A DNA stretch of 64,000 nt from contig NC_026661.2 of assembly GCF_000004075.3 (NCBI RefSeq), positions 3,844,001-3,908,000 of the forward strand, written 5' to 3'. Both the position numbers and the translations under genes were made by a program. Shown one piece after another: positions 1,902-62,176 of the stretch (its first letter is position 1; each line of letters starts with the position of its first letter). The notes under the pieces are model-generated. The model worked only from the letters and a program-made list of their open reading frames with translations. It had not been told where the DNA came from and ran no database searches. The DNA comes from Cucumis sativus (Eukaryota; Streptophyta; Magnoliopsida; Cucurbitales; Cucurbitaceae).

Positions 1902-4398
1902 TTAGAAACTTACTTTTGCATGGGAATTAATCTCTATAAGCATTTCAGAAATGAGTCGATCCAAATTTGTAGATGATGACCCACCAAACTTACAAGCCTC
2001 TTCAGCCTTTGTCTTCCACTCTCTCGCATTTCTTCTGATGTCTTCACCCTTTTCTCCATCTCCCATCAAAACTCTCACAAGCTTCTCCACTTCCTCCCTC
2101 TTCACATCACTCCCAATCTCCAACCCATTCCCCCACTCTGTCTTACAATAATAACTGTTCATAGGTTGTTCTGCAAAGCACGGCCACGATAACATCGCCA
2201 CTCCTCCCACAATACTCTCCATCGTCGAGTTCCATCCACTGTGCGTCAAAAACCCTCCAACCGAAGGATGCTTCAAAACCTCTTCTTGATTGCACCACTT
2301 CACAAACATTCCTCTTCCTTCCGTCTCCGCTGCAAACTCCGCCGGCAACGATATTGTCTCTCCTCCCACTAGATTAGGCCTTACGATCCACAAGAATGGC
2401 TTCTCACTGTTGGCAAGTCCCCACGCAAATTCAACCAAGTGTTGAGGGGACATCACATTTACACTTCCAAAGCTGACGTAAACTACTGAGTTGGGTTGTT
2501 GTGAATCAAGCCATTTCATGCATTCTGATTGCACGTCCCATAGATCTAAACCGATGTCCTTGAGTTTCGCATCTTGGATTGACTCAGCAACTAATAAGTT
2601 GATTGGACCAATTGGGTAAATGGGAGGGAGCCTTGAGGAAAGTGCTTCCAAAACTTGGTGTTCTAAAGAATCAAATGTGTTCATTATTATTACATTGGCT
2701 TTGGGGAGTATTTCAAATTGTTGGATGAAAAAGTTGAGTACTGGGTTGTTTTTGTCGGTTGTTCTAATGGAGCTTGGGATATATTTCAAACTAATTTCTT
2801 TTTGCACTGGTGGGATCCATTCAATTGTTGTTTCTAAATCTCCATTTGTCATGAAGTTATCATCTACAAAGAAAAACCATAGGAAACCAAAAGTCAATTG
2901 AATTTTTTCTTCTAAATCTTATACCAACTTGCTGGTAAAAAATAACTCTACCCTTCAAATTTGGATTTTTATTTTGGTGGTTGAAAAAGTTGGTGTCAAA
3001 TTTGGATTAATAAAAGTATTTTTTTTTTTAAGTTTAAGAGTAATTTATAAAACTTTTCAACCATTTAGTAGTATTTTTTTGAAACAAAACTTAATAATTT
3101 TCATAGGCAAGCATATTCTAAACCATTTTTGAAAGTTTAGAGACATTTTCCTACACAAACTACAAAATTTATGGATATTTTGATATTTTATAATATAATC
3201 TAAACTGTATTAATTTAATGTATGATGTACTTTCAGTAAATGCCAAATTGAGTTCTACACAAAAAATTTATTTCAAATTTAATTTCCAACAACATTTTGT
3301 CGGTAACTTTACCATACTCGAAGTGTAAGATTAATAATATATATTCTCAACTATTACGTGAATATATCTCTATCCCAAACAAAATTTCGAAGCTGCTACA
3401 AATTAATTATTGAAAAGAAAGAAAAGAATAGGTTGAATCACTCAAAACCTGAAACTATAATAAGCAACATTACAGAGGCTATACTGCTGGAAAACCTGCT
3501 TTAATACGAATACTATGTCCATGTTAACGGATTGATCCAAAAGTTTGAGATGATGAATGGGAGCAATTTCAATGTGAATATCAATACTTTAATAGAAAAG
3601 AAAAAAAAAGTTTTGGCTCCATTTGGTTTTTGTTTTTTGAAAATTTAGTGTTTCCTATTTTCTTTCCTTTTCTTGTCATTGTTTTCATCCTTTAAGTAAA
3701 AAAGTTCTTTTAAAAACTTTTAAATTTCATAACTAGTCTTGGTTAAAACAAAATGGTAGAAATTAGATCAAGAAAACAAGATATTTTTGAGGTAAAAGAA
3801 ATGTTTATAGACTTAAAAGACCATATGATTAGCAGAGAGAAGGAGTTGTTAGTAAATGACATTGGGAAAATGGAGTCTTGTTTGATATACCTTTAAAAGG
3901 CAGCAAGCCATGTTCAACAAGTTTTGCATACTGCATATATCCAAGGCACCCACAAGCACTAGCAGTCCAAAACGTAGCAATGGGAATCCCAAATTGACGG
4001 GCAGCAAACACGGTGAAAGTCATGAGCCCATCGCCAACAATGCACGAGACCGGTGGAATAACGCCACCACTCGAGTTGATCTCCGAAATGACACTGCAGA
4101 GTGGGGCTAAGCAATTGCGGGAGGTGGAATAGAAGAGTGAAGGAATATTTCGTCCTTGGGTAGCCTTACTATCGCACGATGGGAGTCCATCGGGAATGGC
4201 TCTGAAGTGAAAGTCAGGCAAGCCATCCAAAGAGTTGGGACCTCGAGTTCTAAGGAGACATCTATGGTTGTATTCTGTGTTGACAAACGTTATGTGGAAG
4301 CCTTTGTGGTGAAAGAGTTTTGCAAGGTTTAGCATTGGAGTTATGTGGCTTTGACTTGGGAAGGGGACGAACACAGCATGAGGTTTCTTGTTACCCTT
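1902..4398 (-). pseudogene. UGT85A: UGT85A-like UDP-glycosyltransferase, start codon apparently lost
   Basis: Family 1 glycosyltransferase, which in this family moves glucose from UDP-glucose to small acceptors such as iridoid or terpene aglycones in the cytosol. Exons are complement(1902..2863) and complement(3891..about 4398), separated by a 1027-base GT-AG intron at the position used by the other copies here (AAAG|GT ... TAG|AT). The joined frame is 1470 bases and is open throughout. The C-terminal half holds the PSPG donor-binding box (WCNQEEVLKHPSVGGFLTHS, then GWNS and WPCFAEQ). At the expected start, minus-strand codons read TGA, then lysine codons, then AAG GGT AAC AAG AAA CCT CAT GCT. 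The AAG (4398-4396) stands where the family has ATG-GGT, and no ATG lies between it and the TGA. The next in-frame ATG comes after the N-terminal catalytic histidine motif (here QSHI instead of QGHI). Either the copy is dead or the assembly has one wrong base. Confidence 0.8.
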
Positions 4399-58658: not shown

Positions 58659-59561
58659 ATGAAGAAGCTAGGTGGATTCATGTGCCACTCTGCTGCCACC
58701 ACCGCAGTCTGCATCCCCTCCGATCCCCGCTCCACCGTTGTGTCAAGAAGGCTGGCTAGACCCGACTATGCTAATAATAATCATGCCAATAATGGCAACC
58801 GTAGTGCGAGGTTTGTGAGCAATAATACTGTGAAGTACTCGAAGCTTGTCGAATCATCTCCTAGTTTGAGTGTTCGGAGCGAGGGAAAGCATATCAATTT
58901 GAAGAAACCGGCCATGCCGGTTATGCTTTCTTCACCAGCGGAGAATAATAACGTCTTCCATGTGGTGGTTATGAGGGTGGCGCTTCACTGTCAAGGCTGT
59001 GCTAGTAAAGTTAAGAGACATCTCTCGAGAATGGAAGGTATTGTAAATCCATGCATATATTATTCATTATATAATCATTTCTATATATGATTACTATATA
59101 TATAATAATGTTGTTAGTGATATCAAATTTCAATTAATTTCAACAAATAATAGAACTATATAAAAATTATCCAAATTGATAATTTTAACTGTTTTTCTAT
59201 TATATTTAACTGCATGCAAAAGTTTCTCCTTTTGTAATATATATATATAATGTTTTTCATTGATTTTTAAAGGGGATTTCAAGTTTAGTAATTGCTAAAA
59301 CTTAAATGAAAATTACATATATATATAATGAAAATTGAAGGATGAAAAAGGAATAGTTGAAGAATATAATGAATGAGAAATATAGAATTAATTGTGTTTG
59401 AATGTAATTTAAATTGAATATGGGAAAGGACAGGAGTGACGTCATTCAGCATAGATCTTGAGGCGAAGAGGGTGACTGTGATGGGACATATTTCACCGCT
59501 GGGTGTATTACAAAGCATTTCCAAGGTCAAGAGAGCTGAGTTATGGGCAACCCAAGCTTAG
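58659..59561 (+). CDS. NaKR2: Heavy-metal-associated protein, NaKR2-like
   Basis: join(58659..59037, 59434..59561), 507 bases, 168 residues. The intron is GTATTG ... GGACAG, within the codon for Gly of RMEG. The N-terminus (MKKLGGFMCHSAATTAVCIP) resembles the SODIUM POTASSIUM ROOT DEFECTIVE family. A basic, Ser/Asn-rich linker is followed by one HMA domain (about residues 98-163) with the metal-binding pair HCQGCASKVKRHLSRMEG, and after the intron FSIDLEAKRVTVMGHISP. The protein ends KVKRAELWATQA. The length matches the short NaKR2 type rather than the roughly 320-residue NaKR1. NaKR1 acts in phloem ion loading and flowering in Arabidopsis; the role of the short forms is less clear. The exon 1 frame left unspliced would read on for only 17 codons. 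Confidence 0.9.
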
Positions 59562-59751
59562 ACATCATCATTATTCACTTTTATTATTACATATAACCAT
59601 CACTATGAGGGAAAAGAAAGATACCCAAAATGGCACTCCAAAAGAAAGAATAACCCAATTTTAATGTAATTTCATCACTGCTTTCTATTAGAGTTGTATA
59701 AGAGTGGGTTGAATTTTCGATTTGGTTGTCAAAATTCCTCTAAAACGGCCC
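59562..59751. other. NaKR 3' UTR and spacer
   Basis: Short interval before the site II/telo-box promoter. The 3' UTR with a TTTTAATGTAATTTC-type end lies here. No other signal. Confidence 0.5.
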
Positions 59752-59800
59752 GGCCCAACCCAACCCAACCCCCGCTTAAAACCCTAGACTCTATTTAAAG
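59752..59800 (+). promoter_or_regulatory. Site II plus telo-box promoter of the snoRNA cluster
   Basis: GGCCCA at 59,752-59,757 (site II, TGGGCC on the other strand), CCAACCC repeats, and the telo-box AAACCCTA at 59,779-59,786. TTTAAAG just downstream could serve as a weak TATA element. This pairing is known from Arabidopsis promoters of ribosomal-protein and snoRNA genes. It stands about 200 bases before the first snoRNA unit and far from any protein start, which ties it to the RNA cluster. Confidence 0.65.
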
Positions 59801-59999
59801 AGTTTGGCGAATGTTGGCGCAGCCCCGCTAGGGTATGAACAACTTCAATCCTTTTCGTTCTTTTCTTTTTTTTTTTCTTCTACGGTTTAATCTGACTAAT
59901 CTTCTATGTTATTCGTCTTTCCTAATATCTGTTATCTTTAACCTATTCGTACTTTGTTCTTTCTGCATTTTCGTTTCGATTTATGAGTTTCAAGTTCTG

Positions 60000-60083
60000 A
60001 AGAATGAAATGATGAGCTTTTTTTATTTGCTTTGATTGCCGTGATGATGGCAACATTAGTATTAGCTCTAGCTGATCATTCTT
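60000..60083 (+). ncRNA. Box C/D snoRNA, copy 1 (18S rRNA guide, U44-like)
   Basis: Terminal stem AAGAATGA (60,000-60,007) pairs exactly with TCATTCTT (60,076-60,083). Box C is ATGATGA (60,009-60,015), box D is CTGA (60,072-60,075), and an inner TTGCCGTGATGATGGCAA hairpin contains a C'-like TGATGA. The 12 bases GTATTAGCTCTA (60,059-60,070), plus the next G, are complementary to CUAGAGCUAAUAC of plant 18S rRNA. By the box D+5 rule the target is the A in UAG-A-GC, the residue that human SNORD44 modifies as I recall it. Function: guide for fibrillarin-dependent 2'-O-methylation in the nucleolus. This copy has the best box C of the three. Confidence 0.78.
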
Positions 60084-60160
60084 TCAGCGATTGATTTATT
60101 TTGTTTCTCTTTCGTATTGGTTTTCCTTTCAGTTCGAACTTGTTTTAAATTGTACTTTTT

Positions 60161-60239
60161 AAGAATGATGTGAGGAACATTTTTGTTTTGATTGCTGTGA
60201 TGATGGCAATTTTTGTATTAGCTCTATCTGATCATTCTT
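60161..60239 (+). ncRNA. Box C/D snoRNA, copy 2
   Basis: The same architecture: AAGAATGA stem, TCATTCTT closing, box D CTGA at 60,228-60,231, inner ATTGCTGTGATGATGGCAAT hairpin, and guide GTATTAGCTCTA at 60,215-60,226. Box C is TGAGGA where copy 1 has TGATGA, one mismatch, so binding of the core protein may be weaker. The base just before box D is T, giving a 12-base duplex with 18S rRNA instead of 13. Confidence 0.7.
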
Positions 60240-60402
60240 TTATCTCCCTTCTTTTTTTATTTTGAAATTCAGGATGTTTTGTCTTAACTTTGTATTTCTC
60301 TTGCTGAGCTGTTTTGTTTTGATTTTCTTGGTCTTGTTTTACAGAATCATAACTTTCGTATTGGATTTCCATTCAGTTTATTTGTTTTTGGTTCAAGCAA
60401 TC

Positions 60403-60482
60403 AAGAATGAAATGAGGAACATAGGTGATTTTGATTGCTGTTATGATGGCAATTATTGTATTAGCTCTATCTGATCATTCTT
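60403..60482 (+). ncRNA. Box C/D snoRNA, copy 3
   Basis: AAGAATGA stem at 60,403, TCATTCTT at 60,475-60,482, box D CTGA at 60,471-60,474, guide GTATTAGCTCTA at 60,458-60,469. Box C is ATGAGGA (one mismatch) and the inner C'-like box is TTATGATGG, also one change. It may be a weakened copy. The spacing of the three units (about 160 and 240 bases) fits a plant polycistronic precursor. Confidence 0.68.
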
Positions 60483-62176
60483 CATACTATTTGGAATACA
60501 CTTTATACATTTTTTAGTTTAAAAGAAAATCATTTTTAGAAAAAATTAACCTTTGAAGTGCATTTTCTTTTTATACCTGTGGTAAAACCTAACCCACATT
60601 TTAATTTCTTTCGATACATTTCACTCTCTGCCATGAGTCATACCTTGAAGTTCTATATCTTTTCATCTACACATGAATGAAAGTCGCTTTTGTAGTTCAA
60701 TTCACATTCTATGACTTTATTTAAAGTTCATGACTTTGACCAAGCAATCCTTGTGAAACATCCCTCAACACAACTTTGAGGATAATGAGCTTTTAATTTG
60801 TTAACTAATATGACAACTCTAACTTCCATCAAGCATACTTAAGCAAAATTTTTGGGACAAAGTAGGTTGAAAAGATTGTCAGTATTGAATTTAGATTTCG
60901 AATCACAGAGTTTGGACATTATAATTTAGCTCTAGAGCTTAGATTTAAGAATGGATTATTTTACAAATTGACTGAGTTGTTCTGTTGAGTATACTAACAT
61001 TATAGTTAGTTTAGTTTTAATTTTCAGAAGGCAACAACTATAATATCTAGTTTTACTCCTCTCTCCCTAAAATCCACCTCAGATTTACATTTTGCTCCTG
61101 ATTCATACCTGCTGCAAGCCCTTATACTTGAGTATGATTAACAATGGCTTGACGCCCACTGTCTTCGTGATCAATTGGTTTTGGTTTGAGAACTTGTCCA
61201 AGTTCATCGAGCAACTTGAAATCATTTGTGAATAAGAAGATTTCTAAAGATATCAATTGGTTTTGGTTTGAGAACTTGTCCAAGTTCATCGAGCAACTTG
61301 AAATCATTTGTGAATAAGAAGATTTCTAAAGATATAAAAGTATGATGAAGTTGTTGTTTATAAACAAAAGTGTACCACTTCTTTTTATATATAGTTTAAT
61401 CACAAGTCACTATTCCTATTCAAAACATTTCAAGACAAGTAAGAATAGCCGTTATCCCTATTCAAAAGTAAGAATAGCCGTTAACATTTCAAGACAAGTA
61501 AGAATAAATGTCAAGTATTGAAGTAAATGTCAACGGGAGAGCCATCAAAACATTTCAAACATTTCAGTATTGAGAAAAATCTGGTTTGAGGGTAAATGTT
61601 AAGAATAAAGGCCAAATCCACAAAGAAGGAAAAATGGAAATTAAAAAAACAGGAGAAATACGTAATTTGATTGATAACATAATCATCCATTCGATTATAG
61701 AAAACTTTTCGCTCTCTTATGAGCCAACCCTTATCAGTTGTATTTTCTAGAATATTTGTTTTCTGTTATCTCATTCATTCGATTGAAAAGAGAAGCAATT
61801 TTCCATGCCCCAATCCCTATCGTGGCGTACTGGAAGTTGGAGTAGAAGAAAAACAGAAAGAAACTACAATAAAACAAACAACTCCCAAATGTATCATATG
61901 ACATAGATATCAATCCACAAGGGTTAGATAATATATAGTTTTGACACATTACAAGGAAAAACCACAATACAAGCAGATGCGGAAGCATAAGCATAGCCAC
62001 CTGAAAGGCGAACTAACAAACTCAACAGCATTAGTACAACATAATCAAAAGCTCTGTCCTAGACCGAAACGTACAAAAGGCATAAGACATCTCGCCAACT
62101 AAGCCGCTTCATCTTCTACAGTAACATTATTTGAAAGTTGAGAGAGGCAGTACGTACTCTATGAGAAATCATCTCT
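60483..62176. other. Intergenic DNA and BAG gene 3' UTR
   Basis: No further gene recognised. Holds the 82-base duplication at 61,170 and short repeats of AAGACAAGTAAGAATA near 61,430-61,505. The last 140 bases are probably the BAG gene 3' UTR. Confidence 0.5.
61170..61333. repeat. Perfect 82-bp tandem duplication
   Basis: The unit starting ATCAATTGGTTTTGGTTTGA and ending ATTTCTAAAGAT is present at 61,170-61,251 and 61,252-61,333 with no difference seen. Only two copies, no spacers, so not an array of any other kind. Confidence 0.92.

Follow-up and report, generated by a model that had tools for sequence, protein, structure and literature searches.

What do three related short units, lying one behind another within a 64-kb stretch of the cucumber (Cucumis sativus) genome (the window), encode? 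The favoured explanation is a triple tandem cluster of box C/D small nucleolar RNAs (snoRNAs) of the Rfam family RF00359 (snoZ102_R77), which would stand behind a plant snoRNA promoter and guide modification of A162 in 18S ribosomal RNA (rRNA). We assign this reading, taken as a whole, a probability of about 0.93.

A search of the three units against Rfam, suggested by the initial annotation of the window, placed all of them in RF00359. Each matched the full covariance model (positions 1–88), with E-values of 1.6e-9, 7.4e-8 and 2.6e-7 for copies 1, 2 and 3, respectively, and bit scores (Table 1) that exceed the 40-bit gathering cut-off. A plain Rfam scan sufficed to detect all three units, and annotation pipelines using Rfam would pick up such a cluster. 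Judged by its sequence, the cluster is an additional example of an already known plant snoRNA family.

The units share a well-defined architecture. Each is enclosed by an exact 8-bp terminal stem, AAGAATGA/TCATTCTT, with box C (RUGAUGA) towards its 5' end and box D (CUGA) towards its 3' end. Copy 1 has a perfect box C, and that of copies 2 and 3, UGAGGA, departs from RUGAUGA at one position. The initial annotation had described three units with exact stems, boxes and a common guide, as well as this difference in box C, and both descriptions were confirmed. When folded singly, all three units kept box D together with the terminal stem and were predicted to form an internal hairpin at box C'; in copy 1, additional outer base pairs, with a bulge of one base, lengthened the terminal stem. 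Ahead of the D'-like TTGA, the copies differed from one another by insertions and deletions (indels). One result weighs against the favoured explanation, at least where simple recognition of the stems is concerned: in the fold of a 736-nucleotide (nt) precursor, a minimum-energy and protein-free prediction that is a weak guide, the terminal stem was kept in copy 2 (8/8 pairs) and lost in copies 1 and 3 (0/8 in each).

Table 1. Coordinates of the snoRNA units and associated features. Positions refer to the window, except in the last row, where they refer to the contig named.
Feature	Position	Strand	Remarks
snoRNA copy 1, including terminal stem	60000–60083	+	RF00359, 68.9 bits; Rfam match 60002–60081
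Elements of copy 1	box C ATGATGA 60009–60015; guide 60059–60070; box D CTGA 60072–60075	+	
snoRNA copy 2, including terminal stem	60161–60239	+	RF00359, 61.7 bits; Rfam match 60163–60237
Elements of copy 2	box C GTGAGGA 60170–60176; guide 60215–60226; box D CTGA 60228–60231	+	
snoRNA copy 3, including terminal stem	60403–60482	+	RF00359, 59.3 bits; Rfam match 60405–60480
Elements of copy 3	box C ATGAGGA 60412–60418; guide 60458–60469; box D CTGA 60471–60474	+	
Site II element TGGGCC (GGCCCA on +)	59752–59757	-	Pattern match
Telo-box AAACCCTA	59779–59786	+	Pattern match
TATA-like motif TATTTAAAG	59792–59800	+	Present in sequence; putative role
Spacer repeat between copies 1 and 2	60109–60134	+	92% identity to 60353–60378
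Spacer repeat between copies 2 and 3	60353–60378	+	26 bases; pair of 60109–60134
Candidate C/D snoRNA, L094 (PBTU01000001.1)	2786–2882	+	Guide 2860–2871; CTGA 2873–2876; box C GUGAGGA 2793–2799

All three units carry the same 12-nt guide, GTATTAGCTCTA. With up to one mismatch allowed, it occurred three times in the window against 0.28 expected, and none of 100 shuffles reached three. Two 18S-like stretches of the cucumber genome (L014 and L015, on contig C4 at ~10.35 Mb), partial copies that cover RF01960 positions 4–1116 and 4–605, respectively, contain UAGAGCUAAUAC, to which the guide is complementary without mismatch. By the D+5 rule, the target is 18S A162, a number counted on these two partial copies and presuming no indel upstream of that point. 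The complementarity to 18S rRNA and the single adenosine proposed by the initial annotation were thereby recovered on the cucumber's own 18S-like sequence. In copy 1, a G beside box D pairs with the C preceding UAGAGC and adds one base pair; in copies 2 and 3, this base is a U. In Arabidopsis, 18S A162 appears among the mapped methylation sites in Table 1 of PMC8053127, with SnoR18 as its guide. A table in PMC6461891 pairs Arabidopsis small-subunit (SSU) A162 with human SSU-A166 and SNORD44, in agreement with the earlier assignment of the adenosine to human SNORD44. PMC4274896 counts snoZ102_R77 in the SNORD44 clan and mentions products of its processing in Arabidopsis small-RNA data. The three units would most likely guide one methylation on SSU rRNA, at 18S A162.

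In the cucumber assembly (226.6 Mb), at least three matches to RF00359 were obtained with 56 of 121694 candidates scored, and all of them belonged to this cluster. The exact guide with CTGA 0–3 bases behind it was found three times, likewise only in the cluster, and its reversed control not at all. The sequence ATTAGCTCTANNTGA occurred at eight places, three of which were the cluster. The other five were considered as second A162 guides and rejected: three lacked a box C-like motif within 90 nt even when one mismatch was allowed, and in the remaining two such a motif lay only ~17–20 nt upstream, too near for a snoRNA. Searches that admitted neither guide mismatches nor G–U pairs found no second A162 guide elsewhere in the genome.

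Upstream of copy 1, a site II element, a telo-box and a TATA-like motif follow one another in the known plant order. PMC4660826 defines site II as TGGGCY and describes a telo-box, site II and TATA box upstream as the promoter of polycistronic plant snoRNAs; the site II/telo-box promoter postulated in the initial annotation matches this TeloSII arrangement, with all motifs found. Promoter motifs alone were not rare in the window, which contains 7 telo-boxes and 17 TGGGCY elements (shuffle means 2.93 and 24.83, respectively), and they are therefore weighty only by their position ahead of three snoRNAs. By a hand estimate, the chance of finding both a telo-box and TGGGCY in one given 250-bp stretch is ~0.002. 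In the data of PMC8053127, 24 of 26 promoter-predicted snoRNA genes were without expression. The evidence for the cluster is the snoRNA units themselves, rather than the promoter prediction.

Beyond cucumber, the exact guide followed by CTGA was present in 84 stretches of genome contigs (80 among the matches listed) and in 23 of viral contigs; a longer guide pattern had no match in the viral contigs. Across these 107 matches, from bacterial, archaeal and viral contigs, four had a box C-like motif within 80 nt, and one of the four also had a stem. This candidate, on contig L094, has a 5-bp stem with a one-base spacer and scored 22.1 with RF00359 (cut-off 40) and 28.9 with snoR38 (cut-off 45), with no match reaching the gathering score. 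When it was folded alone, the terminal stem was missing (z −0.38). It shares with the cluster the 12-nt guide and CTGA, and with copy 2 the box C GUGAGGA, but differs in falling under both Rfam cut-offs and in carrying a snoR38-like second guide stretch, AGUUAUCCCUGUC. The contig is titled as a Verrucomicrobiales metagenome-assembled genome (MAG) and encodes a fusion of ubiquitin and nickel superoxide dismutase (Sod_Ni), a type of fusion that occurs in green picoalgae. Because of this fusion, L094 is probably a misbinned algal contig, eukaryotic despite its bacterial title.

Could the resemblance to snoRNAs have arisen by chance, or be that of a dead repeat? The 12-mer guide by itself is common: the assembly contains it 26 times and its reversed control 18 times. 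Of the 26 guide matches, three are in the cluster and two in the 18S-like copies, and of the other 21, four have NNGA within 0–3 bases, none of these four with a box C-like motif upstream. However, the cluster shows three full-length covariance-model matches with guide, boxes and stems in register, and the test for a box C-like motif and a stem around guide plus CTGA was passed by all three window units compared to one of the 107 foreign contig matches, the likely real snoRNA on L094. A chance or dead-repeat origin is already contradicted at the sequence level, and we consider it extremely improbable. The initial annotation had also raised an intronic location in a non-coding host as an alternative; the units would then be freed from the lariats of a spliced transcript. 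Compatible with this are a donor-like GGTATG (GT at 59833) and acceptor-like CAG ends at five positions (60087, 60132, 60272, 60344 and 60376), one acceptor-like stretch belonging to the spacer repeat, and an intron starting at 59833 could contain copy 1. A scan of 59800–60600 with a few simple splice-site patterns nevertheless revealed only three donor-like sites and no acceptor-like site 3' of copy 3; an intronic copy 3 is unlikely, having no fit within the scanned region. Exact 8-bp stems and a promoter suit an exonic polycistron, and the intronic alternative, which received little support, appears quite improbable.

Given an exonic snoRNA cluster as the favoured explanation, the activity of copies 2 and 3 has to be considered. 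Their UGAGGA box C presumably changes the 3b–3n pair of the kink-turn from U–U to G–U, on our assignment of the kink-turn positions. In human box C/D kink-turns, U:U at 3b:3n is described as strongly conserved (PMC5689011), and copy 1 has its additional G–C pair with the target, beside box D; both points would suit a cluster in which copy 1 alone is active and the other two are duplicates decaying through the box C change. On the other hand, copies 2 and 3 have lost neither the stem and internal hairpin nor box D and the guide, and their scores lie well over the Rfam cut-off. G–U at 3b–3n is frequent in U4 kink-turns, which PMC4382518 reports to be strongly biased to G–C or G–U at this pair, with a G–C variant that still folds on L7Ae. 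An identical GUGAGGA box C is also present in the candidate with the same guide on L094. In view of the L094 variant and the G–U pair of U4 kink-turns, inactivity of copies 2 and 3 is not the default expectation. We regard their decay as unlikely, and UGAGGA is probably an unusual but tolerated variant of box C. It is highly doubtful, though conceivable, that copies 2 and 3 assemble unlike copy 1 through the G–U kink-turn, and that one promoter would thus provide graded guides tuning A162 methylation. If so, the algal-like unit with the same box C and guide would mark an old alternative guide form and not decay.

Pairwise identity was highest between copies 2 and 3 (72/79, 91%), followed by copies 1 and 2 (67/79, 85%) and copies 1 and 3 (65/80, 81%). 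These values, together with the spacer repeat preceding copies 2 and 3, fit a two-step duplication. We infer the order of events: copy 1 would have split early from the ancestor of copies 2 and 3, with the second duplication occurring later.

The cluster can be compared with several known snoRNAs. All three units share the full model, boxes, guide and internal hairpin with RF00359 (clan CL00060; the SNORD44 clan in PMC4274896), and depart from it in their arrangement as three tandem copies in one cluster and in the UGAGGA box C of two of them. Human SNORD44 (U44), the guide for 18S A166, addresses the same 18S adenosine according to the table of PMC6461891. In contrast to the cucumber cluster, which has promoter motifs of its own, SNORD44 lies in GAS5 introns (PMC6466398). 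Arabidopsis SnoR18 is likewise assigned to 18S A162 in PMC8053127 and PMC6461891, a likeness in target assignment; it is also listed for 25S A2935 (PMC8053127).

An Rfam search of 59400–61600 with E up to 5 returned 17 matches, of which the 14 outside RF00359 were all under their gathering scores, and a transfer RNA search of the 64-kb window found none. Downstream of the cluster, a unit of 82 bases is duplicated in tandem at positions 61170–61333, the copies being 100% identical, and positions 61411–61567 contain short imperfect repeats of 15–30 bases based on AAGTAAGAATA and ATTCAAAACATTTCA. On the upstream side, a gene with at least two exons extends on the + strand from 58659 to ~59561; its translation presumably resembles a heavy-metal-associated (HMA) domain protein.
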